The position numbers were made by a program, and so were the translations under genes. This document shows positions 17,486 through 44,355 of a stretch of DNA of 64,000 bases, piece by piece. Numbering within the stretch: position 1 is the first letter of the stretch; each line of letters begins with the position of its first letter. Location of the stretch: contig NZ_APHJ01000026.1 in assembly GCF_000403785.1 (NCBI RefSeq), positions 62,001 through 126,000 of the forward strand, given 5' to 3'. The DNA comes from Gillisia sp. CAL575 (lineage in GTDB: Bacteria; Bacteroidota; Bacteroidia; Flavobacteriales; Flavobacteriaceae). The notes beneath the pieces were generated by a model, which saw only the letters and a list, made by a program, of their open reading frames with translations, ran no database searches and was not told the DNA's origin.

Positions 17486-17532
17486 AGAATTAAATTATGC
17501 TTAAAAATAGAAAATAAATCTATTTAAAACAG

Positions 17533-17558
17533 AAAAAGCAACCCGAAGGTTGCTTTTA
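17533..17558 (-). terminator. Intrinsic terminator after sodC
   Basis: AAAAGCAACC and GGTTGCTTTT form a perfect 10-bp stem around a CGAA tetraloop, 22 bp beyond the sodC stop codon on the minus strand. Confidence 0.88.
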
Positions 17559-17579
17559 TTATTACATCTTTAAAATGTA

Positions 17580-18161: not shown

Positions 18162-18282
18162 AATTTATATAGATTGGTTTTACATTGAATTCATCTAAAG
18201 TACTTGTATATTCAGGAACCTCCAAAGATTTAAGGATTGCTTAACATAGATTTCTTGCTAATAAAAAATGATATAAAAACCT

Positions 18283-19500: not shown

Positions 19501-19529
19501 ATTATATTTTTAAGAATTTGTATTTCAAT

Positions 19530-20423
19530 TTATGCAGGTTTAAAATTTTCCGGCACAGCAATTTTCAGTTTTTTGTCTGAAACATTCACCTTAACTTTCT
19601 TTCTCTTTCCAATAAACTCTCCATCAATTTGAAATGCGACGGGCTTTTTGCAATTAATCACTGCTTCCTCAACAGAAATAGCTTCCACAAAATTGGAATC
19701 CATTTCCGAATTTTTGAGCAAAGTTTTTATAATTTGAAAGATGTTCAATCTTTTAAAAATAAGAATTTCAAATTTTCCATCATTCAATTTTCCGTTGGGA
19801 TTTATATTTGCTCCAGTGCCAAATTTATTTGCATTAGCAATAGCTAAAAGCACTCCTTTTTTTACATATCTATGTCCATTAGCGTCAATTGTAAACTTAT
19901 AAGGAAAATTAGATTTAAATAAGGTTGGGAATGATTGAAGAAAATATCCCAACTTTCCTCTAATACTGGAATGCTCATAATGTCTAATGAGTTCTGCATT
20001 TATACCTAAATCTGAAATATGCAGGCACATTTCTCCATTTAATTCTAAAGTATCTATAGTAAATGTTTTATTGCCTGTGGCAATTTTAATTTGATCTAGA
20101 AGATTATCTGGTAGCTCAAGATTAATTGCAAAACCATTTGCAGAACCTGCAGGTAAGATTCCCATAACAAGATCAAAGTCTTTAAGAACTTTTGCTACAA
20201 GTTGGATAGTTCCATCTCCTCCAGCTACTAATAATCGCTCTGGCTGTTGTTCTTTTATTAACTTTCTTATCGCCGTTTTATCTCCTTCACCTTGAGTTTC
20301 ATAAATAAGAAGTTTAATATTGTTACTAGATAGTTCTGCCTCAACTGTTCTAATGAGATTAGCTTTGTCAAAACTTCCTGAAATTGGATTTACAACAAGT
20401 AAAATTTTATTTTTTGGTTCCAT
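19530..20423 (-). CDS. Diacylglycerol-kinase-family lipid kinase (YegS/DgkB-like)
   Basis: The 297-residue protein has the catalytic domain signature NPISGSFDK near residue 13 and LLVAGGDGTIQLVAKVL (~80), the GGDGT nucleotide-binding loop of the DAG-kinase/sphingosine-kinase superfamily. The C-terminal beta-rich domain includes GTGANINPNGKLNDG and AFQIDGEF. It phosphorylates a lipid such as diacylglycerol, feeding phosphatidate synthesis. The gene is divergent from the App1-like phosphatase, which may act on phosphatidate in the opposite direction. Confidence 0.88.
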   Translation of the reverse strand: MEPKNKILLVVNPISGSFDKANLIRTVEAELSSNNIKLLIYETQGEGDKTAIRKLIKEQQPERLLVAGGDGTIQLVAKVLKDFDLVMGILPAGSANGFAINLELPDNLLDQIKIATGNKTFTIDTLELNGEMCLHISDLGINAELIRHYEHSSIRGKLGYFLQSFPTLFKSNFPYKFTIDANGHRYVKKGVLLAIANANKFGTGANINPNGKLNDGKFEILIFKRLNIFQIIKTLLKNSEMDSNFVEAISVEEAVINCKKPVAFQIDGEFIGKRKKVKVNVSDKKLKIAVPENFKPA

Positions 20424-20486
20424 GCACTGTAAATTGTTGCTAAAATTAACTATTTTGGAAGTATTCTTTCGTTAATAAAATCTCAA

Positions 20487-21455
20487 TTGACAAAAATCGA
20501 CTTAAAATTATATCGTGGATATTTAAACGAGCAGCAGCTGGTAGTTTTTGGCCATGTGTTTAAGTCTTGGGCTCCAGATAAATACAGAATAGATAGACGC
20601 GGAATTAAGCATGCCATGTCTATTATACATATGTTTAATATAAAACCAATTCCCAATATTAGGGTCAATCTAGAATTTCAGGGTATAGAAGTTCATACTA
20701 AAACATTGAACGATGGATATTTTAGATTTAATATTCCATTTAATAAAGAATTGGATAGTGGTTGGCATCAGTATCAAGTGTCTTGTGATTTTAATGGATT
20801 TGGAATTATAGATACTGGTGAACTTCTGAAACCTTTCGAAAGTAAATATGGGATAATATCTGACATTGATGATACTTTTCTAATTTCTTATAGTGGTAAT
20901 TTTTTCAAGAAACTCTATGTAATGCTACTTAGGAATATTAATAAAAGAAAAATATTTGAAGATGTTGTGCCGCATTACAAAGCATTAAGTTCTTACGGGC
21001 AAGATAATGATCAAGCTTTCAACTCCTTTTTTTACGTCTCTAGTAGTGAATGGAATTTATACGATTTTATAAATGAATTCGCTAAAAGACATGAGCTACC
21101 TAAAGCTGTAATAAAGTTAAAAAAGATTAAATCAGGGATTTCAGATTTTTTGATGACGGGCCGTGGAGGACACGATCATAAATTTGAAAAAATTAAGGAT
21201 ATCATCTCATTTTACCCTAATCTAAAATATGTGCTTATTGGAGACGATTCTCAAAAAGATCCCTATATATACGAGCGAATATGTAAAATTTTCCCTTTGA
21301 GTATAAAGGCAGTTTATATTAGGAGAACCAATTCTAAAAAAAAGGACAAGGTTATTACAGTACTGGAAAATCTTAAAGGATTAGGAGTAGAAACTTGTTA
21401 TTTTATACATAGTGAAAAAGCAATAGAACATTCCAAAGAGATCGGGATAATTTAG
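20487..21455 (+). CDS. App1-like phosphatidate phosphatase domain protein (DUF2183)
   Basis: The 322-residue protein has an N-terminal beta-sandwich segment (~1-115). A HAD-like DUF2183 domain follows with DIDDT at residues 126-130 (the two catalytic aspartates), FYVSSSEWNLYDFINEF and LIGDDSQKDPYIY, as in yeast App1 phosphatidate phosphatase. It likely dephosphorylates a lipid or related phosphate. The only usable start in this frame after the preceding stop codon at 20430 is TTG at 20487, so a TTG start is inferred. It is divergent from the lipid kinase gene, with 63 bp between them. Confidence 0.8.
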   Translation: MTKIDLKLYRGYLNEQQLVVFGHVFKSWAPDKYRIDRRGIKHAMSIIHMFNIKPIPNIRVNLEFQGIEVHTKTLNDGYFRFNIPFNKELDSGWHQYQVSCDFNGFGIIDTGELLKPFESKYGIISDIDDTFLISYSGNFFKKLYVMLLRNINKRKIFEDVVPHYKALSSYGQDNDQAFNSFFYVSSSEWNLYDFINEFAKRHELPKAVIKLKKIKSGISDFLMTGRGGHDHKFEKIKDIISFYPNLKYVLIGDDSQKDPYIYERICKIFPLSIKAVYIRRTNSKKKDKVITVLENLKGLGVETCYFIHSEKAIEHSKEIGII

Positions 21456-21764
21456 TAGGTATATTCGATTTTTAAAATGATTCATTATAATTTCTAGGTT
21501 TAATAGTTATATATTTCAATAAAAATTTACTATATCCACCATGGTAGTTCATAAATAGACTTAGCCTATAAAAGTCATAACGAATAAACAGACTCTTTCA
21601 TATTGGATAGTTGGCCACTGGGCACTAACTGGAAATACAATAGTTTTATTAAGACTTTCAAATTCATTAGATATCTAATTTTAGCATACGCCGCCTTTTT
21701 ATGTTTTTTGAGAATTTATAATATAAATAGTTGTAAAAAACAAACTGAGAATTAAACGTAAATT
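21456..21764. other. Intergenic region after the App1-like gene
   Basis: About 310 bp of AT-rich DNA leading to the terminator at 21765. No gene or RNA was recognised. Confidence 0.4.
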
Positions 21765-21808
21765 AAAAGTCCAATTAAGATAGTTTGCACTAGCATAATT
21801 GGACTTTT
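21765..21808. terminator. Bidirectional intrinsic terminator
   Basis: AAAAGTCCAATTA and TAATTGGACTTTT form a perfect 13-bp stem with an 18-base loop. The stem is followed by further T on the plus strand. It lies between the convergent App1-like and DUF1080 genes. Confidence 0.78.
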
Positions 21809-21893
21809 TTAAATCCAAGAATATTTCAGCTTAGATTTGGAATTAGTTAACATAAATTAAACTATAAGTACAAAACTTATCGATACTTATTCT

Positions 21894-22727
21894 TTACATT
21901 TTTTTTATTTTGATATTTCTAAACCACACATCATCTCCGTGATCTTGCAAGCCAATAAAGCCTTGTTTATCTTCTCCGCCTGCATTTAGAAAGTTCTCCC
22001 AATCTTTAAATTTGCTGTTTTTTACCATTTCCTTCCAGTTATCTGTCCATAAATGATATTCCACCACATTTTCACCATTTTGGTTATGTACAACGGTACC
22101 GCGGTAAACAAGTATAGAAACTTTATTCCATTCTCCTACGGGCTTCGCGTTTTGAGGTTTAGCTGGAATAAGGTCATATAAAGAACCCGCCTGTCTATTT
22201 CCATCTGTTCCTAACCTTGCATCAGGATGTTTGTCATTGTCAAGAACTTGCATCTCCGGTGCTGAAGTATAAATAGGTTCACCTTCTATTTCCTGCGCCA
22301 AATAAAAAATACCGCTATTACCTCCTTCAGAAACTTTCCATTCCAGTGTTAATTCGAAATCCTTGAATTGCTCATCATAAACAATATCGCCACCGCCACC
22401 AGCTTCCCCGGCACCCGATCCTTGAACTTTTATAGCTCCATTTTCAACAATCCAACCTTTAGTAGGGAATGCCTTATTATTATAACTTCTCCATCCATCT
22501 GTAGATTCACCATCAAATAGTAATTTCCAACCTTCATCTTTCTCCTTCTGAGAAAGTTCGTTCACTTTTGCTTCAGAAGCAACTTCTGTAACTTCGACCT
22601 CTTGAATTTCTTCAGTGTCTTTCTTTTTCTCACCACAAGAAGTGAGTAAAGATGCGATCAGGATTAATGATACTGGTAATGTATAGATTTTCTTTATATA
22701 CTTAGTTATCAAAATAGTTTTTTTCAT
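21894..22727 (-). CDS. DUF1080 (3-keto-disaccharide hydrolase family) lipoprotein
   Basis: The 277-residue protein has a lipoprotein signal (SLLTSC, Cys31) and a Glu-rich linker. One DUF1080 jelly-roll domain (~60-275) shows WKLLFDGESTDGWRSYN at its start, FELTLEWKVSEGGNSGIFYLAQE, APEMQVLDNDKHPDA, and a closing GFIGLQDHGDDVWFRNIKIKKM. These are the family hallmarks. Members characterised recently act on 3-keto-glycosides, opening the glycosidic bond by elimination or hydrolysis after the sugar C3 has been oxidised. Sitting 41 bp downstream of an exported Gfo/Idh oxidoreductase supports that role. It is anchored in a membrane facing the periplasm or surface. Confidence 0.9.
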   Translation of the reverse strand: MKKTILITKYIKKIYTLPVSLILIASLLTSCGEKKKDTEEIQEVEVTEVASEAKVNELSQKEKDEGWKLLFDGESTDGWRSYNNKAFPTKGWIVENGAIKVQGSGAGEAGGGGDIVYDEQFKDFELTLEWKVSEGGNSGIFYLAQEIEGEPIYTSAPEMQVLDNDKHPDARLGTDGNRQAGSLYDLIPAKPQNAKPVGEWNKVSILVYRGTVVHNQNGENVVEYHLWTDNWKEMVKNSKFKDWENFLNAGGEDKQGFIGLQDHGDDVWFRNIKIKKM

Positions 22728-22768
22728 TTTATGTATTGATTAAATTATTTTTTCAATTTTTAAAAAGA

Positions 22769-24247
22769 TTAAGATAATTCCCAACCTTCCCTGTAATTGT
22801 GTTTAATATACTCTTCTGAAGCCTGTTTTGCATTTATTGTTTCGTACTGAGTATCAAATTTTGGATCACCGTTAATAACTGTAAACTTATCTGTAGTTAC
22901 AATTTTAACTTCCTCATTGTCTCCAATATTTGTAATCTTCATATTCTCACCATCCCAATCTAGTTTTTTCTTAAGATCCTGCAACCTAATGGCAAGATTA
23001 CCCATTACAACTACTTCATTGAAAGGTCCAGCATAAGCGAAGTTAGAACTCGCTTCAACACGGCTTGCTTTAGGCTCCTTACATGCACGTACCCAGTCCA
23101 TTTCATGGCTAAGTTCTACACGTGGAATTACTTTTTTAACTTGTGGAGGATTGTTTTCTCTTCCTATAATATAAGGATCGCGTCCGTATGTACTACATAT
23201 TATAGTTCCTTTGGTACCAACAACCATAGCACCGCCGCCACCGTCACCCATTATTTTACCAGGTTCCATTCCCGCAGGTCTTTCAGGCAACAATCCGCCA
23301 TCATACCAATTAAATTTAAGTGCAGGCATTTTTATTTTATCTAGACTCTTTCTTTCAGGAAAATAATAAGTGACCATTCCCGCAATAGGTGCGCTCTCTG
23401 TGTTTACTTGGGAAGAACTTCCCTCGAATGCGGTAGGATGTCCAAGATTAAGTGCTAAATACACAGGATCCATAAGATGGCATCCCATATCTCCTAATGC
23501 TCCTGTTCCAAAATCCCACCAAGCTCTCCAGTTCCAAGGTGTATATGCTGGGTGATAAGGTCTGCTTTTAGCTGGTCCAAGGAAAAGATCCCAGTCTAAT
23601 GTGGATGGCACTGGGGGTTGCTCTTCGGGTCTTTCCAAACCTTGAGGCCAAATAGGACGATTTGTCCATGCATGTGCCTCTATTGGATCACCAATTTCAC
23701 CATTCTGAATCCATTCTGCGAATAATCTTGTACCTTCATTGGAATGACCTTGATTTCCCATTTGGGTAGCAACGCCTGTTTGTTTTGCCATTCCTGTTAA
23801 ATACCTGGATTCATAAATTGAATGGGTAAGTGGCTTTTGGAGATATACATGTTTTCCCATACTCATGCTTGCCCCGGCTGTAAGTGCGTGAGTATGGTCT
23901 GGAGTTGCAATAACAACTGCATCTATATCCTTATCCATTTCCTCAAGCATTTTACGATAATCTAAATATTTTTTAGCATTGGGATAATCGTTAAAAGTTT
24001 TTGCAGAATAATCCCAATCTACGTCACAAAGCGCAACAATATTTTGACCTGTGATGTTTGTTAAGTTTGCTCTTCCCATACCTCCAATACCAATACCGGC
24101 TATATTGAGAGTATCACTAGGGGCTGTAAAACCTACTCCTCCAAGTACGTGTCTTGGAACGATCATAACTCCCGCTGCGGTCAAAGCTGTACTTGCAATG
24201 AATTTCCTTCTGGAAACACTATTAGTTTCTTTTTTATTTTCTTCCAT
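22769..24247 (-). CDS. Tat-exported Gfo/Idh/MocA family oxidoreductase
   Basis: The 492-residue protein begins with a Tat signal (SRRKFIASTALTAAGVMIV, residues 12-30). The NAD(P)-binding Rossmann fold follows (LNIAGIGIGGMGRANL), with the dinucleotide-fold continuation VVIATPDHTHA and the conserved YLQKPLTHS lysine-proline segment. The C-terminal substrate domain (~215-490) contains the GALGDMGCHLMD motif typical of exported Bacteroidota members. It should oxidise or reduce a sugar hydroxyl, probably C3, with tightly bound NAD. A GH109-like NAD-dependent glycosidase is an alternative. The neighbours (DUF1080, TIM-barrel) point to 3-keto-sugar chemistry. Confidence 0.9.
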   Translation of the reverse strand: MEENKKETNSVSRRKFIASTALTAAGVMIVPRHVLGGVGFTAPSDTLNIAGIGIGGMGRANLTNITGQNIVALCDVDWDYSAKTFNDYPNAKKYLDYRKMLEEMDKDIDAVVIATPDHTHALTAGASMSMGKHVYLQKPLTHSIYESRYLTGMAKQTGVATQMGNQGHSNEGTRLFAEWIQNGEIGDPIEAHAWTNRPIWPQGLERPEEQPPVPSTLDWDLFLGPAKSRPYHPAYTPWNWRAWWDFGTGALGDMGCHLMDPVYLALNLGHPTAFEGSSSQVNTESAPIAGMVTYYFPERKSLDKIKMPALKFNWYDGGLLPERPAGMEPGKIMGDGGGGAMVVGTKGTIICSTYGRDPYIIGRENNPPQVKKVIPRVELSHEMDWVRACKEPKASRVEASSNFAYAGPFNEVVVMGNLAIRLQDLKKKLDWDGENMKITNIGDNEEVKIVTTDKFTVINGDPKFDTQYETINAKQASEEYIKHNYREGWELS

Positions 24248-24290
24248 GATACTAGAATTTACATTTTTAAGGTTGAGAAAAAGTTTGTTA

Positions 24291-24318
24291 AAATTGTATG
24301 GTTAATAATATACAATTT
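24291..24318. promoter_or_regulatory. Inverted repeat upstream of the Gfo/Idh gene
   Basis: AAATTGTAT and ATACAATTT form a perfect 9-bp inverted repeat with a 10-base spacer, 43-71 bases before the Gfo/Idh start. It could be an operator or a weak hairpin between the TIM-barrel gene and Gfo/Idh. No regulator is identifiable. Confidence 0.35.
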
Positions 24319-24431
24319 AAAAAAAACCAATGCATATTGTTAATAAAATCTAAATATAATTAGATTCTTATTATTTAAATTTGTTTCATAATTCATAAAC
24401 AATTGACCATCAATTACTTACGAATATTAAT

Positions 24432-25418
24432 TTACTGTAATTTTTTTCCTTCTGAAATTAAAAGTTTTTTTGTTGCAATTATACCTTCTTCTGCAGAGAG
24501 ATTTTGGCCTTCATATTCAACGCCTATATAGCCTGTATACCCTGCATCTTTTACGATTTTAAGAATCTTCTCAAATTCCATAATAGTTTCTTGACCTTCC
24601 AAATTAAAATTATAAGATTTTGCGCTTACTGCTTTCGCAAACGGCATCATTTCTTTAATCCCCTGATATCTTGGGTATTCTTCTACACATTTGGCTTCCC
24701 AACGTTCTCCTCCCTCACGTTTTAAGCAAAAATTACCAAAATCAGGAAGGGTACCAACATTGGAAAGGTTAACACCTTCCATTACCTCGACAAGAAGTTT
24801 TGCATTGGAAGATAAGTAGCCGTGGTTTTCTACCAAAACATTTACCCCTTTGGTGGCTGCATATTCTCCTATATTTTTAAGACCTTTAATAGAATTTTGT
24901 TTCCATGTTTCAGCATCATTGCTTCCAAACAGATTTACTCTAATAGAGTGGCATTTTAAAAATTGAGCGGCGTCTACCCATTTTTTATGATTATCTACTG
25001 CTTTATTTCGCTCCTCTGTACTAGAGACAGCAAGATCTCCTTCCCCATCAATCATAATGAGAACATTTTCAACATTAAATTTTTCACTTCTCGCTTTTAA
25101 AGTATCCAGGACAGTTTGTAAATCACTTTCTTCAATTTGGGTAGAGTAAAGTCCACTAACATATTCAATACCGGAAAATCCCATATCATGAGCTTTCTCA
25201 GCAAAATCCATAGGGTTCATTTTTCCTTCTATTATTGGCTTACTAAGGGACCATTGAGCTAATGACAGTTTGAAAAACAATTCTTTTTCTTTGGATTGCT
25301 CTTGGACTATTTCTTGTTCAGAAACTTTTTCTGGTTTGTTCTTACAGGATGCAGTTACTATTAATAGCAGAAAAGTAAATAGTAAAAACTTTGAAAATTT
25401 TGCACTTTGGTCGATCAT
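24432..25418 (-). CDS. Xylose-isomerase-like TIM-barrel sugar isomerase/epimerase lipoprotein
   Basis: I chose the ATG at 25418, giving MIDQSAKFSKFLLFTFLLLIVTASC with lipobox VTASC. A TTG further upstream would add an unlikely charged extension. The barrel domain (~50-328) shows FKLSLAQWSL, SIRVNLFG, VNVLVENHGYLS, NVGTLPDFGNF and the closing GYTGYIGVEYEGQN. These carry the Glu/Asp/His metal-ligand positions of AP-endonuclease-2/xylose-isomerase-like proteins. It likely epimerises or isomerises a keto-sugar product. It is first in the minus-strand group with Gfo/Idh and DUF1080 and divergent from the GMC operon. Confidence 0.83.
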   Translation of the reverse strand: MIDQSAKFSKFLLFTFLLLIVTASCKNKPEKVSEQEIVQEQSKEKELFFKLSLAQWSLSKPIIEGKMNPMDFAEKAHDMGFSGIEYVSGLYSTQIEESDLQTVLDTLKARSEKFNVENVLIMIDGEGDLAVSSTEERNKAVDNHKKWVDAAQFLKCHSIRVNLFGSNDAETWKQNSIKGLKNIGEYAATKGVNVLVENHGYLSSNAKLLVEVMEGVNLSNVGTLPDFGNFCLKREGGERWEAKCVEEYPRYQGIKEMMPFAKAVSAKSYNFNLEGQETIMEFEKILKIVKDAGYTGYIGVEYEGQNLSAEEGIIATKKLLISEGKKLQ

Positions 25419-25523
25419 AAAACAATGGTTTAGAGATTGATTAAATAATTTTATTAACAATAAGTTTAGAAATTTAAAAATAGACTTAATTTTTGAATCC
25501 CATTTTATTTTAGCTTTAATTGA

Positions 25524-25531
25524 TATATTTG
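25524..25531 (+). promoter_or_regulatory. Promoter -7 element of the GMC operon
   Basis: TATATTTG is an exact TAnnTTTG match ending 10 bases before the TTG start codon at 25542. Transcription would begin almost at the start codon. Confidence 0.55.
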
Positions 25532-25541
25532 GAAATACAGA

Positions 25542-27281
25542 TTGGATTTAACTTTAATAAATATTAAAAGCTTGAGCAAAAATTTAGAATCGGAAACCTT
25601 TGATGCAATTGTTGTAGGTACCGGAATTAGCGGCGGATGGGCTGCCAAAGAATTATGTGAAAAGGGATTTAAAACACTTGTTCTTGAACGAGGTCGTATG
25701 GTAGAACATATTAAGGATTATCCAACAATGAATGACGATCCATGGGATTATGAATTTAAAGGTCAAGTTCCCAGAAAAGAAGCGAAAAGACAAGAAAAAC
25801 AGGCCAGAACAGGTTATACAGTTAATGAAGTATCCAAACATTGGTTTGTGGACGATATTAAACATCCTTATAATGAGTCTAAAAGGTTCGACTGGATTCG
25901 TGGGTATCATGTTGGAGGGCGATCTATTATGTGGGGTAGGCATAGTTATAGATTAAGTAATTTAGATTTTGAAGCCAATAAAAAAGACGGTATAGCTGTA
26001 GACTGGCCTATTCGTTATAATGATATAGCCCCTTGGTATGATTATGTTGAATCTTATATAGGAGTAAGTGGAGAGAATCTAGGACTTCCACAATTACCAG
26101 ATGGTAAGCTTTTACCAATGATGGACCTAAATTGTGTAGAAGATCATCTTAAACAAAATATTGCTAAAAATTTTACAGACAGAGTGCTTACTGCAGGTCG
26201 CGTAGCTCATATTACAAATAATGATTCCTTTGAGGGAAGAGCGCCTTGTCAATACAGGAATCGCTGTATAAGAGGCTGTCCGTATGGAGCATATTTCAGC
26301 AGTAATTCCTCTACTTTACCTGCTGCAGCTCGCACAGGAAATATGACCTTACGTCCAAATTCTATTGTGAGTGAGGTAATTTATGATGCCAATACTAAAA
26401 AGGCAACAGGGGTAAAGGTAATTGATGTGGAGACTAAGGAAGTGCATGAGTTTAGTGCAAAAGTTATATTCTTATGTGCATCTACTATTGCATCTGCCAG
26501 TATTTTAATGCAATCCAAATCAGATAGATTTCCTAATGGGATGGGAAATGATAGTGGGGAACTTGGTCATAATGTTATGGATCATCATTTTGATGCCGGA
26601 GCTACGGGGAAATATGATGGTTTTGAAGACATGTATTATAAAGGTAGAAAACCAAATGGAATATATTTGCCACGATTCAGAAACCTATCAGAAAACGAAA
26701 ACTTCAATTTTATACGTGGCTATGGATATCAAGGTGGAGCAAGCCGGGACAATTGGAATGATACGATTGCCGAAGCTAGTTATGGAAAAGAATTAAAGGA
26801 TGCGATATCTAAACCGGGAGGCTGGACAATGGGATTAATGGGATTTGGGGAAACGCTCCCATATCATGAAAATAAGATGACTCTTAATTATGATAAACTA
26901 GATGATTGGGGACTTCCAACTGTAACGTTTGATGCAGAATTCAAAGAAAATGAATTGAATATGCGAAAAGATATGATAGAACAAGCCGTATTAATGTTGG
27001 AAAAGGCAGGATTTAAAGATGTTCAGGGTTACGATAATTTAGGTGCTCCTGGACTAGGAATCCACGAGATGGGTACAGCAAGAATGGGTAGAGATCCTGA
27101 AACATCGGTTTTAAATGAAAATAATCAGTTACACTCAGTATCTAACGTATATGTAACAGATGGTTCCTTTATGACATCGGCGGCTTGCCAAAATCCATCG
27201 TTAACATATATGGCAATGACAGCAAGAGCAGCAGATCATGCAGCTAAACATTTTAAAGTAACCGAAGCTGAAATTTTATAA
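25542..27281 (+). CDS. GMC-family FAD oxidoreductase, probable glucoside 3-dehydrogenase large subunit
   Basis: The 579-residue flavoprotein has the FAD-binding motif VVGTGISGGWAAKEL at residues ~25-40 and a cysteine-rich CQYRNRCIRGCPYG segment. The C-terminal GMC block holds GIHEMGTARMG (His) and CQNPSLTYMAMT (Asn), which form the catalytic His/Asn pair. An in-frame stop lies at 25521, so TTG at 25542 is the only reasonable start. There is no signal peptide, while the next gene, 2 bp on, encodes the Tat-bearing small subunit. Export as a hitchhiker complex is inferred. By analogy with known glucoside 3-dehydrogenases it would oxidise sugar C3 in the periplasm. Gluconate or sorbitol dehydrogenase are alternatives. 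Confidence 0.88.
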   Translation: MDLTLINIKSLSKNLESETFDAIVVGTGISGGWAAKELCEKGFKTLVLERGRMVEHIKDYPTMNDDPWDYEFKGQVPRKEAKRQEKQARTGYTVNEVSKHWFVDDIKHPYNESKRFDWIRGYHVGGRSIMWGRHSYRLSNLDFEANKKDGIAVDWPIRYNDIAPWYDYVESYIGVSGENLGLPQLPDGKLLPMMDLNCVEDHLKQNIAKNFTDRVLTAGRVAHITNNDSFEGRAPCQYRNRCIRGCPYGAYFSSNSSTLPAAARTGNMTLRPNSIVSEVIYDANTKKATGVKVIDVETKEVHEFSAKVIFLCASTIASASILMQSKSDRFPNGMGNDSGELGHNVMDHHFDAGATGKYDGFEDMYYKGRKPNGIYLPRFRNLSENENFNFIRGYGYQGGASRDNWNDTIAEASYGKELKDAISKPGGWTMGLMGFGETLPYHENKMTLNYDKLDDWGLPTVTFDAEFKENELNMRKDMIEQAVLMLEKAGFKDVQGYDNLGAPGLGIHEMGTARMGRDPETSVLNENNQLHSVSNVYVTDGSFMTSAACQNPSLTYMAMTARAADHAAKHFKVTEAEIL

Positions 27282-27283
27282 TT

Positions 27284-27928
27284 ATGAACAGAAGACAAGC
27301 TTTAAAAAACTTTGGCCTAGGTGCGGGAATTCTTATAATAGGACCGAGCACTTTAAGTTTACTGCATAGTTGTAAAGGAGAAAATAAATACGATTGGGAA
27401 CCAAACTTTTTAAGTGTTTCTAATGGTTTTGCTTTAAAACAAATACTAGATATTATACTGCCAGTTACAGATACTCCGGGTGCGGGAGATTTAAATATAG
27501 CTCAATTTATAGATTCCTATATGGATGAAGTTGCCACTAAAAATCAACAAGAAAATTTTTATCGAAATGCAAATGCTTTTGCCTCAGTGTTTAAAAAGGA
27601 ATATGACAAAGAGCTCGAAGAAGGTTCCGCAGAAGAATACGAGAAAATAATAGCAAAGTATTTGAGAGCAGCACCAGAAAAGAGAGAGGAATATGCAAAA
27701 AGAAATACCGAAACACAAGATCCACAGGATAATGACCCTAATATTAAAGATGATATAGATGTTAGTAGCTATGGTTATCTTACAATAATAAGGGAGATGG
27801 GAATTTGGGCATGGAAAACAAGTGAAGAAATCGGGGAAAATATACTATGGTACGATCCTGTACCAGGACGATATATTGCTTGTGGACCTCTAAAAGAATT
27901 AGGAAATGGAAAGGCGATGTCTTTATAG
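27284..27928 (+). CDS. Gluconate 2-dehydrogenase subunit 3 family Tat lipoprotein
   Basis: The 214-residue protein starts MNRRQALKNFGLGAGILIIG, a Tat signal with the twin Arg at residues 3-4, and ends in the lipobox-like LLHSC (Cys30). The mature part matches the gluconate-2-dehydrogenase subunit-3 family (LKQILDIILPVTDTPGAGDLNIAQFIDSYMDEV). Members accompany GMC flavoprotein subunits and are needed for their maturation or export. It begins 2 bp after the GMC gene. It is probably the export and membrane-anchoring partner of that enzyme. Confidence 0.88.
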   Translation: MNRRQALKNFGLGAGILIIGPSTLSLLHSCKGENKYDWEPNFLSVSNGFALKQILDIILPVTDTPGAGDLNIAQFIDSYMDEVATKNQQENFYRNANAFASVFKKEYDKELEEGSAEEYEKIIAKYLRAAPEKREEYAKRNTETQDPQDNDPNIKDDIDVSSYGYLTIIREMGIWAWKTSEEIGENILWYDPVPGRYIACGPLKELGNGKAMSL

Positions 27929-28045
27929 AAAGCAATTTTTCCTTTAACAATGCGTCTTTGGCAATTTTGTGATTGATTAATTAATATTTATCCTTAAACA
28001 TTTATTTTTTAGAAATTATTTAAAAAAATAAATGTGCTATTTTCT

Positions 28046-28061
28046 ACGAAATCGATTTCGT
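28046..28061. promoter_or_regulatory. Perfect 16-bp palindrome, LacI-type operator
   Basis: ACGAAATCGATTTCGT is a perfect palindrome with a central CG and GAAA/TTTC arms, the pattern of LacI/GalR-family operators. It lies 100 bp before the susC start, adjacent to a TTG at 28070-28072 and a TATTTTAC element at 28094-28101 that may be the -33 and -7 boxes. I saw no second copy of it in the other intergenic regions of this locus. Confidence 0.6.
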
Positions 28062-28160
28062 GGATATAATTGTTTTTTTCCTGTTATGAACAATATTTTA
28101 CATAAATTTATTAGATTCTTAATGTTTAATTAAGAAAACTACCAACTAAAACTAATTCTT

Positions 28161-31100
28161 ATGAAAAAAATTACTTTCAGGAGCTTTTTGTTTGCTATTG
28201 TTTTTCTATGTTTCGGAATAGTGAATGCGCAACAAACTGTTTCCGGAACGATTACAGATGGAAGTGGGCCAATGCCTGGTACAACTGTTGCAATTAAAGG
28301 TACATCTACAGGAACCACTTCTGACTTCGATGGAAAATATACTTTGAACAATGTACCAGCCGATGGAGTTTTGGTATTTAGTTTTGTAGGATATGAAATC
28401 CAGGAAATTGGAGTTAATGGTCGTTCTACAATCGATGTAAATTTATTAGCAGATGCCTCAGAATTGGAAGAGGTTGTGCTTATTGGATATGGAACTACTA
28501 CCATAAAAGATGCTACAGGTTCTGTTTCTTCTGTTACTTCCGAAGAATTTAATAAAGGGGTCATTGCTTCCCCAGAGCAATTAATTCAAGGTAAAAGTGC
28601 TGGGGTACAAATTTCAGAAACATCTGGTGCGCCTGGTGCGGGTATAAATGTTCGTATTAGAGGATCTAACTCTATTCGTTCTGGTAACAATCCTTTGTTC
28701 GTTGTTGATGGAGTTCCACTTGCTTCAGGCTCAGCTCCTTCATCTAGCGTTGGTGGAATTGGTACTGCTGGTGGTCAAAATCCATTGAGTTTCATTAACC
28801 CGAACGATATAGAAAGTATATCTATTCTAAAAGATGCTTCAGCAACAGCGATCTACGGTTCTCGTGGCGCCAACGGAGTAATAATTATACAAACCAAAGG
28901 AGGTAGAGGTGCTTCAGAGGGTAGATTTGAATTTAATTCTAGCTTAGGGATTGGAACACCTGCTAGTGAATATGACCTATTAAATAGAGAACAATATTTA
29001 ACCGCCATCGCTTCTGTAGGAAACGATCCTGATGCTTTGGACTTTGGTGCCGATTCTAATTTCCAGGATTTTTATACTCGTACCTCTTATTCAGAAAACA
29101 TTGATTTAAGTTACTCAAAGAGTTATACAGGAGGAAATGTTCGTGCTTCTATTGCTTACAACGATCAAGAAGGAGTAGTAAGAAATAGTTATTTGGAACG
29201 GTTAACAGGTAGATTAAATGCCAGCCAACGGTTATTAAATGATAAATTAACTTTAAGCATTCAGGCCTCTATTTCTAAGATCGATCAGCAAAGTGCTCCT
29301 ATTAATGGAGAGGCTGGATCTACAGGTGATTTAATTGGTGCTTCTATTACACAAAACCCAACAGCACCTATAGATCCAACATTTAACCCAGGAGGAAATG
29401 TTTTGAACCCAACGAGCTTACTAAATAGCTATCGAGGTCTTTCTGAAGTTGAAAGATTTTTAGGAAACGCTTCAGCAGAATATGCTGTTACTAATGAATT
29501 AAGTGCCAAAGTAACCATAGGTTACGAAAAGGCAGATACGGAAACTACTTCCGTGTTTGGTTCAGATGTAATTGGTTTAAATGGAATTTCCGGAATTGGT
29601 AGAGGTAGATATGACACTTTCGATCAGGAAAACTCTCTTCTTGAAGCAACCTTAAACTATAAAAAAGAATTTGACAACTCTGTTCTCGATGTGGTTGGAG
29701 GATATTCTTATCAGAAATTTGACAGAAATGGTTTCGGATCTGAAGGAGCAGGTTTTAATACTGCAGATCTTAGAGTGATGGCGCTTCAGTTAAAAGATGC
29801 TTATAGAAGTGTTACAGGAGCTATAAATGGTCCTTACACTGTATTTGGTTACGGAAATGATGGGACTTATTTAAATAATCTTTTACCTTCTTTTACAAGT
29901 GGTGAACTACCAGAAGGTTTTGACAGACCAATCCCAGCATATGTTTTAAATTATACTTTCGATAATTTTGATGAATTACAGTCATATTTTATGAGAGCAA
30001 ATTATACACTTGCTGAAAAATATTTGTTTACAGGTACGTTTAGAGCAGATGGTTCTTCAACATTTGGTGAAAATAATAGATATGGATACTTTCCTTCAGG
30101 AGCAGTTGCATGGCAGATCCATAAAGAAGATTTTATTGGAGATACATTCTCTACCTTAAAGCTTCGATTAGGTGCTGGTATTGTAGGTAGTCAAGAAGGT
30201 TTAGGATATGGACGTTTTGTTCAACGAGAACGTGCTGCAGGAGGAGGAATAAGTAATGACCTTAATGTACTTGGAGCACCGGGAACTTTTATAGATGGAG
30301 ATCCAAATCCAGACCTTAAATGGGAGGAAACTACAGATTACAACGTAGGGGTAGATTTTGGATTTAACAATGACAGGTTTAGTGGAACGGTAAACCTATA
30401 TCGTAAAGAAACAAATGACCTATTGTTGCCAAGACCATCTGCCGCTCCAAGTAGTGGTAGTATAATTTTTAGTAACCTGTTGGATGGTAAAGTAATTAAT
30501 GAAGGTGTAGAGCTTTCTTTAGATTACGATTTTGCAAATACCGAAGACTTTGGTTTCTCTGCTAATTTCAATGTAGCTTACAATAGTAATGAAGTACAGG
30601 ATACACAATTCACAATTCCAACCGGTGCTATTAGAGGTAATGGATTAACCAACGCTTTTGCTCAGCAATTACAGGCAGGACAACCTTTATTTTCTTATTT
30701 TATGGCAGAGTTTACAGGTTTTGATACAGATGGAAATCCTACATACCTTGATGTAGATGGAAATGGTATTGGTGATCCAGATGCCGATAAATTCTTTGTT
30801 GGTAAAGATGCTCAGGCAGATTGGAATGCTGGTTTGTCTTTAAATGCGAGATATAAGAATTTTGATCTTTCTACGTATCTTAATGGACAATTCGACTTCT
30901 ATGTGTATAATGCTACTAAGAACGCATTTTTCACAAAAAGTGCTTTACTTATTGGTAAAAATACAACACAAGAGGCAGCATCAAATAACGAGAACCCAGC
31001 ATCTTCAGTTGCTGTTTCAACAAGATTTCTTGAAAAAGGTGATTTTATAAGACTTTCATCAGCATCATTGGGTTATAGTGTACCATTAAATGAAACCAGT

Positions 31101-31292
31101 CAAGTAAGTTCTCTTAGATTAAGTGTAACAGGACAAAACTTATTCCTAATTACTGATTATAGTGGATTAGATCCTGAAGTTTCTACGAATACTGGAAACT
31201 TAAACGATTCTGGAATTCCAACTGTAGGTATAGATTATGCAGCGTATCCAAGACCGCGTACTATATCTTTTGGTGTAAGTGCAACATTTTAA
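28161..31292 (+). CDS. SusC-family TonB-dependent outer-membrane transporter
   Basis: The 1,043-residue protein has a signal peptide ending near residue 24 (FGIVNAQQ). A carboxypeptidase-D-regulatory-like domain (~25-105: VSGTITDGSGPMPGTTV, FDGKYTLNNVPADGVLVFSFVGYE) comes next, then the TonB plug (SVSSVTSEEF to ASATAIYGSRGANGVIIIQTKGG, ~115-250). A 22-strand barrel ends in aromatic Phe (GVSATF). It imports an oligomeric substrate with its SusD partner, powered by TonB. The substrate is not obvious from sequence. A LacI-type palindrome lies upstream, and susD follows after 15 bp. Confidence 0.93.
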   Translation: MKKITFRSFLFAIVFLCFGIVNAQQTVSGTITDGSGPMPGTTVAIKGTSTGTTSDFDGKYTLNNVPADGVLVFSFVGYEIQEIGVNGRSTIDVNLLADASELEEVVLIGYGTTTIKDATGSVSSVTSEEFNKGVIASPEQLIQGKSAGVQISETSGAPGAGINVRIRGSNSIRSGNNPLFVVDGVPLASGSAPSSSVGGIGTAGGQNPLSFINPNDIESISILKDASATAIYGSRGANGVIIIQTKGGRGASEGRFEFNSSLGIGTPASEYDLLNREQYLTAIASVGNDPDALDFGADSNFQDFYTRTSYSENIDLSYSKSYTGGNVRASIAYNDQEGVVRNSYLERLTGRLNASQRLLNDKLTLSIQASISKIDQQSAPINGEAGSTGDLIGASITQNPTAPIDPTFNPGGNVLNPTSLLNSYRGLSEVERFLGNASAEYAVTNELSAKVTIGYEKADTETTSVFGSDVIGLNGISGIGRGRYDTFDQENSLLEATLNYKKEFDNSVLDVVGGYSYQKFDRNGFGSEGAGFNTADLRVMALQLKDAYRSVTGAINGPYTVFGYGNDGTYLNNLLPSFTSGELPEGFDRPIPAYVLNYTFDNFDELQSYFMRANYTLAEKYLFTGTFRADGSSTFGENNRYGYFPSGAVAWQIHKEDFIGDTFSTLKLRLGAGIVGSQEGLGYGRFVQRERAAGGGISNDLNVLGAPGTFIDGDPNPDLKWEETTDYNVGVDFGFNNDRFSGTVNLYRKETNDLLLPRPSAAPSSGSIIFSNLLDGKVINEGVELSLDYDFANTEDFGFSANFNVAYNSNEVQDTQFTIPTGAIRGNGLTNAFAQQLQAGQPLFSYFMAEFTGFDTDGNPTYLDVDGNGIGDPDADKFFVGKDAQADWNAGLSLNARYKNFDLSTYLNGQFDFYVYNATKNAFFTKSALLIGKNTTQEAASNNENPASSVAVSTRFLEKGDFIRLSSASLGYSVPLNETSQVSSLRLSVTGQNLFLITDYSGLDPEVSTNTGNLNDSGIPTVGIDYAAYPRPRTISFGVSATF

Positions 31293-31307
31293 TAAAAAAA
31301 AAGGACA

Positions 31308-32966
31308 ATGAAAAATAAAACAATTTTTAAAACTTCAGCCAGGTTGCTATCGGGATCGCTAATTCTAGCGACTGCTTTCCTTTCCTGTACAGATTTAGAG
31401 ATAGAGGGAACTGACTCTATTATAGTAGATGCCAGCGAAGCAGGCTTTCAAGGAGTTAGTGATCCAGATTCTTTTTTGGACAATGCCTATAATAGTTTAA
31501 ACGGGTTAATAGGAAACCAAGCAGACCTTTATGCTCTAGCTGAAGTAACAACAGATGAGGCTTTGGTGCCTACGAGAGGTTCTGACTGGGGTGATAATGG
31601 TATTTGGAGACAACTGCATCAACATGATTGGACAGCCAATCATAACTTTCTTTTAAATGTTTGGAATCAATGGAATACTTTACATTTTCAGGGAGCTCAG
31701 GTTCTTTCTGATTTAACTAATAGTACGCCGCAACAAGAAGCAGATGCTCATTTTTTAAGAGCACTTGGAATGTGGATTATCTTGGATAATTTTGGACAAG
31801 TACCCGTACGTGATCCAGATGCTCCAGTATTTGATGACCCTATTGTGCTAAAAGGCCAAGAAGCTGTAGACCAAATAGTTTCTGATCTTAATTTAGCAAT
31901 TGCAGATTTAAACGCAATTGGACCAGGAGCGGGAGTAGGAGATGCTGCTGCACCTAATGCGCGTCCGGGAAAAGCTGCTGCAAAATATTTACTTGCAAAA
32001 GTTCTTCTTAATAAGCATATTTATTTGGGCACAGAGCCTAATAGTGCAGACATGAACCAGGTTGTAAGTCTGGTTGACGAAATTTCTGGTGAAGGATATG
32101 GACTAGAAGACGGATATTTTGATATTTTTAAAAGACAATTGGATAGAGAAACAATCTGGTTTATACCTACTGCCGTAGGAAATAGAATTTGGAACGGACT
32201 TCACTACAATATGGCGCCAGATCAAGCTGGTGGTGGATGGAATGGTTTTTCTACCCTTTCTGAATTTTATGATATGTTTGAAGGAGATCCTAATTCTAAT
32301 AGAGGAACGGCACAAGGTGAACCCTTAGATGGGCAAGAAGAACGTAGAGGATTTGTTCCTCCATCTGGTTTACCAGCAGGATCTTTTCCTGGCTCAATAA
32401 ATGATAACGGGGATGCATTTGCAGATGGATCTAGTGTAGGTTTCGGTTTCCTTGTTAATCAACAGTACGATTATGATGGTACTCCTTTAAAAGATAGAGG
32501 TGGTAATCCATTAACTTTTAAAAGAGATTTTAAAGATGGATCTGGAAACATCAGTCTAATTAATAACAGTGAGACTACAGGAATTCGTACTATTAAATAT
32601 AACCCTCGCAATGGAGCATTTACAGAACATGAAATTTTCTTTAGATATTCAGATGCACATTTAATGAAAGCGGAAGCAATGATGAGAGCTGGCGGAGATC
32701 CTTCAGCTTTAGTTAACGAATTAAGAATCCTTAGAAAAGCTCAACCACTTGGAAGTGTAACCGAAAGTGATCTTTTAGAAGAAAGAGGAAGAGAATTATA
32801 TATGGAATTCTGGAGACGAAATGATATGATTCGATTTGGAGAATATACGAGAAATTGGGAATTAAAATCACCTTCTGCAGTTGGTGATCCAACCAGAAAT
32901 TTATTTCCAATACCTGCAAATCAATTGATTTTGAATCCTAATCTTACTCAGAATCCTGGATATTAA
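31308..32966 (+). CDS. SusD/RagB-family surface glycan-binding lipoprotein
   Basis: The 552-residue lipoprotein (FLSC, Cys27) has the alpha-helical TPR-like SusD fold. Typical features are DPDSFLDNAYNSLNGL in the N-terminal part, ADAHFLRALGMWIILDNFGQVPV (~140-165), the HLMKAEAMMRAGGDP segment, and LLEERGRELYMEFWRRNDMIRFGEY near the C-terminus. It forms the lid of the SusC pore and captures the substrate at the cell surface. It is followed by a very strong terminator, so the VCBS genes downstream probably depend on readthrough or their own promoter. Confidence 0.93.
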   Translation: MKNKTIFKTSARLLSGSLILATAFLSCTDLEIEGTDSIIVDASEAGFQGVSDPDSFLDNAYNSLNGLIGNQADLYALAEVTTDEALVPTRGSDWGDNGIWRQLHQHDWTANHNFLLNVWNQWNTLHFQGAQVLSDLTNSTPQQEADAHFLRALGMWIILDNFGQVPVRDPDAPVFDDPIVLKGQEAVDQIVSDLNLAIADLNAIGPGAGVGDAAAPNARPGKAAAKYLLAKVLLNKHIYLGTEPNSADMNQVVSLVDEISGEGYGLEDGYFDIFKRQLDRETIWFIPTAVGNRIWNGLHYNMAPDQAGGGWNGFSTLSEFYDMFEGDPNSNRGTAQGEPLDGQEERRGFVPPSGLPAGSFPGSINDNGDAFADGSSVGFGFLVNQQYDYDGTPLKDRGGNPLTFKRDFKDGSGNISLINNSETTGIRTIKYNPRNGAFTEHEIFFRYSDAHLMKAEAMMRAGGDPSALVNELRILRKAQPLGSVTESDLLEERGRELYMEFWRRNDMIRFGEYTRNWELKSPSAVGDPTRNLFPIPANQLILNPNLTQNPGY

Positions 32967-32983
32967 TATAAAGTTATAATTAA

Positions 32984-33013
32984 AAAAAAGAGGGCGAATT
33001 CGCCCTCTTTTTT
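32984..33013. terminator. Strong intrinsic terminator after susD
   Basis: A perfect palindrome, AAAAAGAGGGCGAATTCGCCCTCTTTTT in two equal arms with center 32998/32999, lies 18 bp after the susD stop codon and is followed by T-rich sequence. It would separate susCD from the downstream VCBS genes. Confidence 0.88.
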
Positions 33014-33082
33014 ATATGAATTATTTTAATTTAATTAATATTTTATAATAGATTACTTCAACATACATTGTAATAATTCTTC

Positions 33083-36000
33083 GTGAAAAATAAAAAATTC
33101 TTCTTGTTTTTTTGCTTGATAAGCCTGCTTATTCAGGGGTGTACTAAGACAGAATATCTTTTTGAAAAAATAGAAGCTTCGCATTCTAATCTATACTTCT
33201 CTAATCAACTTGATTCAAATTCAGAAATAAATATCTTTAATTATCTATATTATTATAATGGTGGAGGAGTCGCAGCAGGGGATTATAATCAAGATGGTCT
33301 TATAGACTTATATTTTACTTCTAATGAGCAAGAGGATAGGCTTTTTTTAAATCTCGGTAATTTTAAATTCAAAGAAATTACCTCAGCCTCCAAAATTGAA
33401 AATTCCAAAGGATGGACTACAGGAGTTAGCAATATAGATATAAATGGGGATGGTTTACTAGACCTTTACATATGTAAAGTAAGTGATTTCCTTAATTTAA
33501 AAGGACATAATTTGCTCTATGTTAATCAAGGACTTAATGAAGATGGGATTCCCATCTTTAAGGAACAGGCTGCAGAATATGGGCTCGATTTTTCAGGTTT
33601 TTCTACTCAGTCTGTGTTCCTAGATTATGATCTAGATGGCGACCTTGATATGTATTTACTAAACCATTCCGTACATCCTAATAGGAATTATGGAAGAGGT
33701 GAAAAAAGGAAGAGTTATGATCAAAAATCTGGCGATCGATTGTTTAAAAACGAGAATGGATTTTATAAGGATGTCTCTTCTGAAGCGGGCATCTTTCAGG
33801 GAGTAATTGGCTATGGATTAGGTGTGGCAGTGGGAGATCTTAATAACGATCTATATCCTGATATATATGTTGGAAATGATTTTTTTGAAAATGATTATTT
33901 ATACATTAATCAGAAAGATGGAAGTTTTCATGATCTTATTTCAAATTATCCTGAAAAGTTAGGGCATACAACGCATTTTTCAATGGGCAATGATATTTCT
34001 GATATAAATAATGATGGACTAGCCGATATCATTTCTCTGGATATGCTTCCTGAGGATCTTCAATCTTACAAAACCTCCGGATTGGAATATCCATTTCAAA
34101 CGTATGCTTCTTATTTAAAGAATGGTTTTTCTCCGCAATACATGCAGAACACCCTACATTTAAATACAGGAAACCTTAATTTTTCTGAAACTGCATTTCT
34201 AAGTGGTATTTCTGCAACAGAGTGGTCTTGGGGAGCTCTATTTGCAGATTTTGATAATGATACCTATAAAGATCTTTTTATAACCAATGGAATAAAAGGC
34301 GCTACCAACGACATGGATTTTATTAAGTATATTTCAAATGAAAAAATTCAGAAACAATTAAGTCAAGGAAAATTTGATAATTATGATGATCTTATAAAAG
34401 AGCTACCACAAAAAAAAATATCCAATTATATATTTCAAAATCAGGGAGACAATACTTTTGAAAACCGTAAAAATGAATGGCTAAATTCTGAACCTAGCTT
34501 TAGTCACGGTGTTGTATATGCAGATCTTGATAATGATGGGGATTTGGATTTAATAGTGAACAACACGGACGAAAATGCTGGAATTTTTAAAAACAATTCA
34601 GAGAAAACAAGTAAGAATAATTTTATCAAGGTTCAGTTTAAAGGAGATACATCTAACAAACTTGGTATTGGTGCAAAAATTATTCTTTTCTACGGAGATG
34701 AAATTCAACAACAGGAACATTATTTAAGTAGGGGATATCTTTCTTCTTTGGCTCCCGGATTGCATTTTGGTCTCGGCAGTAATTCAATAATAGATTCTTT
34801 AAAGGTAATTTGGCCTGGATCTTTAACTGAAACTAAATACAACGTTAAAGCAAATAGTACTATTGAATTCAATATAAAGGATGCCAACTCTTTTAATTTC
34901 AAAAAACCTCCAATCGATTCTGTATTTATTATAAGAGATTCTTTGATAGGTTACAAACACGTAGAGCAATCTACCTTAGAATTTAATCGTGAACCTCTAA
35001 TCCCTTTTGGTTATAGTAATTTAAGTCCGCGAGCTGCTGTAGCTGATATTAACAAAGATGGACTTGATGATTTCGTAATTGGTGGAGGAAAAACACAAAG
35101 CTTGAAATTATGGTTTCAGAATAAAGATGGAAGTTTTAAAAGATCTGAGCAAAAAATATTTGATGAATTTGCTATATCTGAAGATACCGATCAAGTATTT
35201 CTAGATGTAGACGGGGACTTAGATGAAGATTTAGTAGTAGTAATGGGTGGTAATGAATTTACCAAGGGAAAACCTATACAACCGCAATTATACCTGAATG
35301 AAAATGGAAAATTTAGATTGGACGATCAACAATTTAAAGGAATTGCACTTAATGCTTCGCGAGTAACATCGGTAGATTTAAATGCAGACGGTTTTCCCGA
35401 TCTTTGTTTTAGTGCAAACATAGTCCCGGGGGAATATGGTATAACTCCTATTCAGTTCCTATTTTTAAATGATGGCAAGGGTAATTTCACCGAAGCTACT
35501 AGTCAATATTCTGAATCATTCAAGAATGTCGGAAATGTTCAGGATATATTTTGGATAGACATTAATAAGGATAATATTAAAGATGCCATACTGGTTGGTC
35601 ATTGGATGCCTGTTACTATATTTCTCAATAATGGCGAAAAGCTGAGTAAACTGGAGGCAGGGCTTGAAGATTCGAACGGTTGGTGGAATGCGGTGATTGC
35701 AAAAGATTTTGATGGTGACGGTGATATAGATATAGTTGCAGGAAACTGGGGTCTTAATTCCAAGCTTAAGGCTTCCGTAGAAAAACCATTGAAACTGTAT
35801 CTTGGAGATTTTGATGGAAATGGCTCTATAGATCCCGTAGTGAGCTATTTTTATAAAGATAAAGAAACTGCATTTGCCTCTAAAGACGAACTTGATCACC
35901 AAATGCCATTTTTAAAGAAGAAATTTCCTAGTTATAAGGAATATGCAGATGCAGATTTTTCTGAGATTCTATCCCCAGAAAAACTGAAGAAGGCCCAAGT

Positions 36001-36379: not shown

Positions 36380-36384
36380 TAAAA

Positions 36385-43003: not shown

Positions 43004-43004
43004 T

Positions 43005-44351: not shown

Positions 44352-44355
44352 CTCT

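Follow-up and report, generated by a model that had tools for sequence, protein, structure and literature searches.

How might glycosides be cleaved at a locus that holds no classical glycoside hydrolase, and does the SusC/SusD pair (SusCD) beside the enzyme genes belong to the same pathway? We addressed these questions in a 64,000-nucleotide stretch of the Gillisia sp. CAL575 genome (contig NZ_APHJ01000026.1, positions 62001–126000; contig C25 of the 53 contigs that make up the 3.64-Mb assembly), hereafter called the window. A sequence-only reading had described here a single SusCD-linked locus for oxidative (3-keto) glycoside cleavage, including a DUF1080 lipoprotein, a Gfo/Idh oxidoreductase exported by twin-arginine translocation (Tat), a lipoprotein with a triosephosphate isomerase (TIM) barrel, and a GMC flavoprotein with its small subunit. 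Judged from the families to which they belong, these five genes, at 21894–27928, very likely encode a periplasmic 3-keto-glycoside cleavage pathway. We consider it fairly probable that this pathway runs through oxidation, elimination, hydration and reduction, cleaving glucosides or oligosaccharides via 3-keto intermediates, and that SusCD is separate from it. Gene content, family membership, conservation and rearrangement were observed directly for these genes, which are as follows.

21894–22727, minus strand: DUF1080/3-keto-disaccharide hydrolase lipoprotein (PF06439, 3keto-disac_hyd)
22769–24247, minus strand: Tat-exported Gfo/Idh, BT2158-family putative glycoside 3-dehydrogenase (NF058561; twin-arginine signal by inspection)
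24432–25418, minus strand: TIM-barrel lipoprotein, putative 3-keto-sugar eliminase or 2-hydroxy-3-keto-glucal hydratase (PF01261; lipobox by inspection)
25572–27281, plus strand: GMC flavoprotein, putative glycoside 3-dehydrogenase of the FAD-GO/GlycDH/LacA type (PF00732/PF05199)
27284–27928, plus strand: small subunit, Gluconate_2-dh3 family (PF13618; twin-arginine signal, conserved Cys30)

The open reading frames (ORFs) agreed with the positions given by the sequence-only reading, and Pfam and NCBIfam upheld its gene identities. Its statement that no glycoside hydrolase (GH), polysaccharide lyase or sulfatase gene lies at 21894–45279 also stood: a Pfam scan detected no such domain in the 13 genes at 20487–45279, two antisense ORFs of 128 and 141 amino acids (aa) lying outside the scan. 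A GH3 gene (3462–6026) is found elsewhere in the window.

The Gfo/Idh protein scored 796.9 bits against the NCBIfam model NF058561 (BT_2158_fam, “glycoside 3-dehydrogenase”), for which the equivalog cut-off is 750; having passed this cut-off, the protein probably acts as a C3 oxidase in its own right that could complete the redox cycle, rather than being a generic reductase. The sequence-only reading had cast it as the re-reducing enzyme; that function is kept, but as what is most likely a BT2158-family C3 dehydrogenase it would not be confined to re-reduction. The protein matched PDB entries 8tdf and 8tdh across nearly its whole length. K138, D253 and H257, corresponding to the catalytic Lys, Asp and His of the superfamily, were kept in 11 sequences, and the EKP motif present in 8tdf reads QKP both in the window protein and in the 11 sequences compared with it. 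Above-cut-off members occurred in 11 of 149 Flavobacteriaceae genomes; in eight of the 11, our own counted, a DUF1080 gene directly follows the Gfo/Idh gene, and the other seven such DUF1080 proteins are 54–61% identical to that of the window. A wider view of this pairing came from 80 named loci with this type of Gfo/Idh, the best 80 of 513 confirmed (40 of them at least 17 kb long, the other half shorter), in which the next same-strand ORF after Gfo/Idh was DUF1080 in 50 cases, another gene in 27 and the locus end in three. The closest matches among these 80 came from two Gillisia genomes, at 97–98% identity.

The DUF1080 protein covered the complete PF06439 profile (positions 1–187 of 187) with 176.4 bits against a gathering cut-off of 26.8, and its PDB relatives 4hxc, 8tda and 3osd were matched at E values of about 1e-86 to 1e-85. 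It is a putative 3-keto-glycoside lyase/hydrolase and the likely eliminase of the locus. Identity with 46 of 50 DUF1080 proteins encoded directly after a BT2158-type Gfo/Idh was at least 49% (49–87%; full range 33–87%), compared with 24–44% for 48 DUF1080 proteins from the canonical GMC clusters described below, which identifies the window protein as the Gfo/Idh-paired type. The only other PF06439 matches in the genome were weak (31.9 and 21.9 bits), so that no strong candidate other than the DUF1080 of this pair is available to act with the GMC enzyme. In another genome (G115, locus L089, 3370–6768), a 1132-aa ORF with a DUF1080-like stretch lies between a Tat Gfo/Idh-like gene and a GMC–small subunit pair.

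Translation of the TIM-barrel protein probably starts at the ATG at 25418 and not at the TTG at 25460. The structure model of this protein (predicted local distance difference test score, pLDDT, 85.9) had its best PDB fold in 4ovx, a planctomycete xylose-isomerase-domain protein; the C-glycoside deglycosidases DgpB/C and DfgA/B ranked next. These enzymes, including 7EXZ, are presented in the available part of PMC10628242 as eliminases of 3-keto-C-glycosides. Because the best folds of known function are thus deglycosidases acting on 3-keto-glycosides, a predicted role as eliminase or hydratase fits better than the isomerase proposed by the sequence-only reading; an ordinary sugar isomerase was rejected on NCBIfam matches far under the cut-off. 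Residues E197-x-H199, D226 and E301 were invariant across 53 sequences. The AtOGE/CGE pattern given in PMC10628242 has metal ligands on strands 5, 6, 7 and 8 and a catalytic His two residues beyond the first ligand; aligned by eye, the invariant residues suit this pattern only in part, as the strand-7 position appears to be Lys267.

The GMC gene probably starts with the TTG at 25572, not at 25542, because its relatives begin with “MSK/VSK..ENETYDAIVVGTG”; no signal peptide of its own was seen by inspection. The protein carries the GLGIHEMGTARMG motif with H508, together with a CX5CX3CP cysteine cluster, and the GIHEMGTAR-type pattern and the cluster recurred in 64 and 70, respectively, of 72 GMC proteins. 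Cysteines of this kind bind a 3Fe-4S cluster in the glucose dehydrogenase of Burkholderia. The GIHEMGTAR motif equals the surroundings of His493 as spelled by the primer codons of PMC4650693, a paper whose available part describes this residue as catalytic in the FAD-GO subfamily of GMC enzymes oxidising the 3-OH of glycosides. Among the small subunits, a twin arginine near the N-terminus was found in all 63 and a lipobox-like Cys, by a loose pattern, in 61, suggesting that the window small subunit is likely the Tat escort and membrane anchor of GMC.

The usual form of such clusters was established from 60 GMC loci, consisting of the best GMC match in each of 58 related genomes, the window itself and a second locus of genome G031. 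The set covers 59 of the 79 genomes having a GMC match and leaves out 20, and GMC, as the search query, is by definition present in 60 of 60. The small subunit was found in 59 of these loci, the TIM gene in 53, a signal-less Gfo/Idh in 51, an epimerase in 49, DUF1080 in 44 and a Nuc_H_symport importer in 41, and the importer, signal-less Gfo/Idh, epimerase, TIM, GMC and small subunit were all present in 40. The TIM gene divergent from GMC–small subunit forms the conserved heart of these 40 canonical loci, and the window GMC is 66–81% identical to the best GMC of each of the 40. Plasmids of Hymenobacter volaticus and Xanthomonas sacchari carry an annotated gene set that is very similar but includes a c-type cytochrome. 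The Gillisia genome yielded no Nuc_H_symport importer in a search that was positive in the controls G031 and G100, no signal-less Gfo/Idh (best query match 27 bits; control G031 positive), and no canonical epimerase in a search run without a positive control. The BT2158-type Gfo/Idh and its DUF1080 occupy the place that the importer, signal-less Gfo/Idh, epimerase and other DUF1080 hold in most relatives. With this pair standing in place of the import arm, the pathway is therefore probably completed in the periplasm.

A BT2158-type Gfo/Idh (at least 50% identity) was located beside GMC in three of the 60 loci, namely the window, L081 (G136) and L084 (G047). Among the 80 named loci, a GMC gene lay nearby in four: Gillisia L158 and L159, Salinimicrobium xinjiangense L160, with the order TIM–GMC–small subunit–Gfo/Idh–DUF1080 and a divergent TIM gene, and Aliifodinibius L173, whose GMC is distant (34% identity). 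Altogether, seven cases of the pair beside GMC were found. Six of them could be placed on a Gfo/Idh tree of the 46 closest of 88 rows, from which L084 was left out, and they require four changes of arrangement, of which at least three are forced by strong branches. None of the six genomes tested in which the pair adjoins a close GMC had the importer (G153, the genome of L173, lay outside this test). Eight genomes carry the BT2158-type Gfo/Idh elsewhere; six of these had an importer of at least 67% identity, G146 had a 40% match and G025 had none. Fisher p values are 0.010 and 0.005 under the two ways of treating the 40% match of G146.

Which known pathways does the gene set resemble? LacA and LacC are a GMC enzyme and its small subunit. 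The LacABC–DUF1080 clusters of Caulobacter, Pedobacter and Indibacter share GMC, small subunit and DUF1080 with the window, and the available part of the paper describing them (PMC9007349) also names a transporter, two epimerases and a reductase, upstream of lacB. The canonical GMC relatives have the transporter, epimerase and Gfo/Idh in common with these clusters, so that the canonical form represents a known kind of pathway. In contrast, the window locus is without the transporter, the signal-less Gfo/Idh, the 350-aa epimerase and the cytochrome gene (LacB), and has the BT2158-type Gfo/Idh. The BT2156–BT2160 cluster of Bacteroides thetaiotaomicron resembles the window in joining a BT2158-family Gfo/Idh to a DUF1080 partner with no classical GH, BT2157 being named a 3-ketotrehalose hydrolase in the accessible text of PMC9007349. 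The window differs from this cluster by its extra GMC/small subunit and TIM lipoprotein, and none of the five core window proteins scanned came near the BT_2159_fam cut-off.

The Agrobacterium GlycDH–AtOGE–AtHYD–Gfo operon follows a similar course, with C3 oxidation by a flavoenzyme, elimination and hydration by TIM-barrel proteins and reduction by Gfo/Idh; in the portions of PMC10628242 at hand this order is largely reported, the hydration step on preliminary evidence. There the eliminase is a TIM-barrel protein and DUF1080 does not occur in the available main text, whereas the eliminase of the window is likely DUF1080. The levoglucosan pathway LgdA–LgdB1–LgdB2–LgdC also proceeds by oxidation, elimination, hydration and reduction, with sugar-phosphate-isomerase-type proteins for the middle two steps; the available part of PMC7676230 places ABC transporter genes nearby and does not name GMC or DUF1080. 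Thus, the proposal of the sequence-only reading that the GMC/small subunit, DUF1080, Gfo/Idh and TIM proteins carry out oxidative 3-keto glycoside cleavage was supported, as the set recurs across genera and matches the published pathways as far as the accessible text of these papers extends. Taken singly, the enzymes and their reactions have precedents; what would be new is that they are combined in this way and that the import arm has apparently been replaced, and the open-access literature searched gave no usable report of the SusCD/DUF1080 combination or of the pathway.

Each catalytic step is assigned from family membership, and localisation, cofactor use and substrate are likewise predicted. 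Periplasmic glycosides would be oxidised at C3 by the GMC/small-subunit pair, with electrons delivered to the respiratory chain, or alternatively by the Tat-exported BT2158-type Gfo/Idh carrying its own NAD(H). The DUF1080 lipoprotein would break the bond by elimination, freeing the aglycone or second sugar, the TIM lipoprotein may hydrate the enone or serve as a second eliminase, and Gfo/Idh would give electrons back to the 3-keto-hexose to produce glucose for uptake. As the GMC electrons would be unusable for re-reducing the product, it seems more apt to regard GMC and Gfo/Idh as two alternative ways of oxidising substrate for one lyase than as members of a linear chain. Our tentative extension of this scheme, to which we give well under an even chance, is a self-contained periplasmic assembly in which GMC and the NAD-loaded Gfo/Idh share one DUF1080 lyase; such an assembly would have replaced the import arm several times and would achieve either net hydrolysis, through the Gfo/Idh loop, or net oxidation feeding respiration, through GMC.

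Several observations weigh against the proposed periplasmic pathway. Redox balance is its weakest point, a respiratory GMC being combined with an NAD-bound Gfo/Idh, and with oxidation by GMC no source of periplasmic NADH is evident. No ORF of at least 90 aa with a CXXCH motif was found in the 20-kb stretch round GMC (L096, window 16500–36400), to which this search was confined. The third metal-ligand position of the TIM protein, on strand 7 and occupied by His in AtOGE, appears by eye to be Lys267, and the protein may therefore not work as a Mn enzyme. Deletion of BT2157 and BT2158 did not impair the growth of B. thetaiotaomicron on raffinose-family oligosaccharides (PMC11501099). On the Gfo/Idh tree, the GMC-adjacent label was clustered, only eight of 500 shuffles being as low. 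The link with importer loss is suggestive only, because some of the genomes without an importer are related to each other (three Gillisia-like genomes and Salinimicrobium) and some are incomplete; the importer was also locally absent from 19 of the 60 GMC loci, G004, G013, G142 and G025 have no importer genome-wide yet no BT2158 member beside GMC, and G136 and Salinimicrobium have retained the signal-less Gfo/Idh.

Does SusCD belong with these enzymes? The genes that follow SusD, which the sequence-only reading did not name, decide the unit to which SusCD is assigned. The features downstream of the small subunit are as follows.

28046–28061, no strand: operator-like perfect palindrome ACGAAATCGATTTCGT, LacI-type, 115 bp upstream of SusC
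28161–31292, plus strand: SusC (PF07715/PF00593/PF13715), in the FG-GAP/PAP2 unit by synteny and tree
31308–32966, plus strand: SusD (PF07980), FG-GAP/PAP2 unit
32984–33013, no strand: strong two-way intrinsic-terminator-like hairpin after SusD
33083–36379, 36385–39741 and 39704–43003, plus strand: three FG-GAP/UnbV_ASPIC repeat proteins, FG-GAP/PAP2 unit
42996–44351, plus strand: PAP2-superfamily protein, FG-GAP/PAP2 unit
44338–45279, plus strand: GyrI-like protein, FG-GAP/PAP2 unit

We compared 30 PAP2 stretches outside the window, 29 from the other 59 PAP2-positive genomes and one from a second copy in our own genome. The order SusC–SusD–FG-GAP/ASPIC–PAP2, in some cases with extra genes between, was found in 22 of the 30, and 19 of these 22 also had the GyrI-like gene. 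In 21 of the 22, no match to the DUF1080, Gfo/Idh, TIM, GMC or small-subunit proteins was detected; the exception, G100, has an inverted SusCD block next to GMC. Three of the 22 (L113, L130 and L131) encode a SusC 29–36% identical to that of the window, and no GyrI-like gene was seen there. The window SusC fell within a 20-row clade of SusCs from FG-GAP/PAP2 units (support 100/99), the divergent L130 and L131 proteins lying outside it. Thus, the window SusCD seems to be part of a separately conserved unit.

The unit is probably also separately regulated, to judge from its operator-like site. The palindrome occurred with at most one mismatch 85–121 bp before SusC in 11 of the 22 stretches from relatives, several of which have a LacI-like gene alongside, as recognised from its N-terminal sequence. 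Genome-wide, the motif (at most two mismatches) was found six times compared with seven for the reversed control; because it is no commoner than this control and LacI operators resemble each other, we give weight to nothing but its conserved position ahead of SusC. Operator-like palindromes (at most two mismatches) were present in the TIM/GMC promoter of seven of the 60 loci and absent from that promoter in the window and in its Gillisia relatives, and shared regulation linking SusCD with the enzyme genes was rejected on this ground. The same type of operator was also seen elsewhere in our own genome, between LacI-family-like and SusC-like genes (L037 1501–1516, G000:C23:2631), and a second match, differing at one position, lies at a distance of 324 bp within the SusC frame. 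Scans for terminator-like and promoter-like sites found 9 against 7.1 expected and 35 against 44.1 expected, respectively, and from these scans we drew on nothing but the strong hairpin that follows SusD. Further along the window, at 51839–55940, a trehalose-phosphate synthase/phosphatase gene is divergent to a GH15/trehalase-like gene (54147–55940), which possibly represents a classical trehalose route.

Given this synteny, SusC tree and operator comparison, a single locus supplied by SusCD, with GMC as the oxidase, DUF1080 as the cleaving enzyme, Gfo/Idh as the re-reducing enzyme and the TIM protein as an isomerase, is not our default reading, and we judge it unlikely. All of its genes are present and adjacent, and SusCD adjoins the GMC–small subunit cluster in the three Gillisia-like genomes in which we saw it (window, L158 and L159), with the inverted neighbourhood of G100 as a further case; a fourth genome of the genus, G111, had neither a GMC nor a PAP2 match. 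In Gillisia LH_M84 (L159 1325–4429), Gfo/Idh is 97% identical to that of the window but the SusC beside the cluster only 53%; this SusC groups with G080, on another branch of the clade that holds the window SusC, so that the adjoining SusCD appears to have been swapped. Among the 149 genomes, uncorrected for kinship, a PAP2 homologue was present in 54 of the 77 that have a close GMC and in six of the 72 that have none, an association that persisted in three genome-size bands. However, BT2158-like Gfo/Idhs of at least 370 bits, taken as a control, were at least as strongly associated with GMC (63 of 77 versus 0 of 72) and also accompany PAP2, so that a general sugar-eating lifestyle may explain the co-occurrence. 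Only three of 53 other PAP2 places lay within 25 kb of GMC (three of the 22 sharing a contig with it), and a SusC or SusD match was present in just five of the 60 GMC loci, the window included, by a single-query BLAST that can miss distant SusCs. L091 and L095 do combine SusC-like genes with GMC, Gfo/Idh and DUF1080, all read from the same strand (SusD there by inspection; the L095 GMC without an adjacent small subunit), and the Hymenobacter plasmid also holds such genes, with a GH65 gene between. L091 and L095 are better models than the window for the SusCD-linked idea of the sequence-only reading. The window SusC lies apart from theirs on the tree; an operator-like site of its own precedes it, and a terminator-like hairpin follows SusD. 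Co-occurrence across related genomes, set beforehand as a test of that idea, held for the core enzymes and partly failed for SusCD, whose membership of the locus has weak support at best. By the criteria for a polysaccharide utilisation locus, the SusC/SusD pair is present, SusCD is conserved across genera with FG-GAP/PAP2 and not with degrading enzymes, and within the genus it adjoins the cluster in three genomes. SusCD may or may not supply substrate to the 3-keto enzymes.

A different division would make GMC, small subunit and TIM a respiratory glycoside-oxidation system and the Gfo/Idh–DUF1080 pair an independent BT2157/BT2158-like glycosidase that is merely adjacent. The two do occur apart: 57 of the 60 GMC loci have no BT2158-type Gfo/Idh at the identity threshold used above, the BT2158 member lies away from GMC in eight of the 11 family genomes, five of them with DUF1080 following, and no GMC was seen in 76 of the 80 named loci or, counting just the 40 that reach 17 kb, in 36. 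We nevertheless find this division doubtful, since the adjacency recurs on several lineages with differing gene orders, the importer is missing from every tested genome with the pair beside a close GMC, and the genome's other PF06439 matches are weak. It is very improbable that GMC oxidises gluconate, inositol or another polyol and that the locus does not concern glycosides. PF13618 is named for gluconate 2-dehydrogenase subunit 3 and, among GMC chains of solved structure, fructose and glucose dehydrogenases come closest, yet the catalytic-His motif matches FAD-GO glycoside oxidoreductases and most GMC loci contain a DUF1080 gene; motif and context led us to reject a gluconate dehydrogenase.

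If the periplasmic 3-keto pathway is correct, glycoside cleavage of this kind would be modular in gene content, with an exported, NAD-carrying dehydrogenase substituting for an importer and a cytosolic reductase. The locus would also offer a natural setting for periplasmic electron balance, together with named relatives such as Salinimicrobium xinjiangense. Adjacency alone is poor ground for assigning SusCD to neighbouring enzymes, and here SusCD–FG-GAP–PAP2 stands out as a widely conserved uptake unit.

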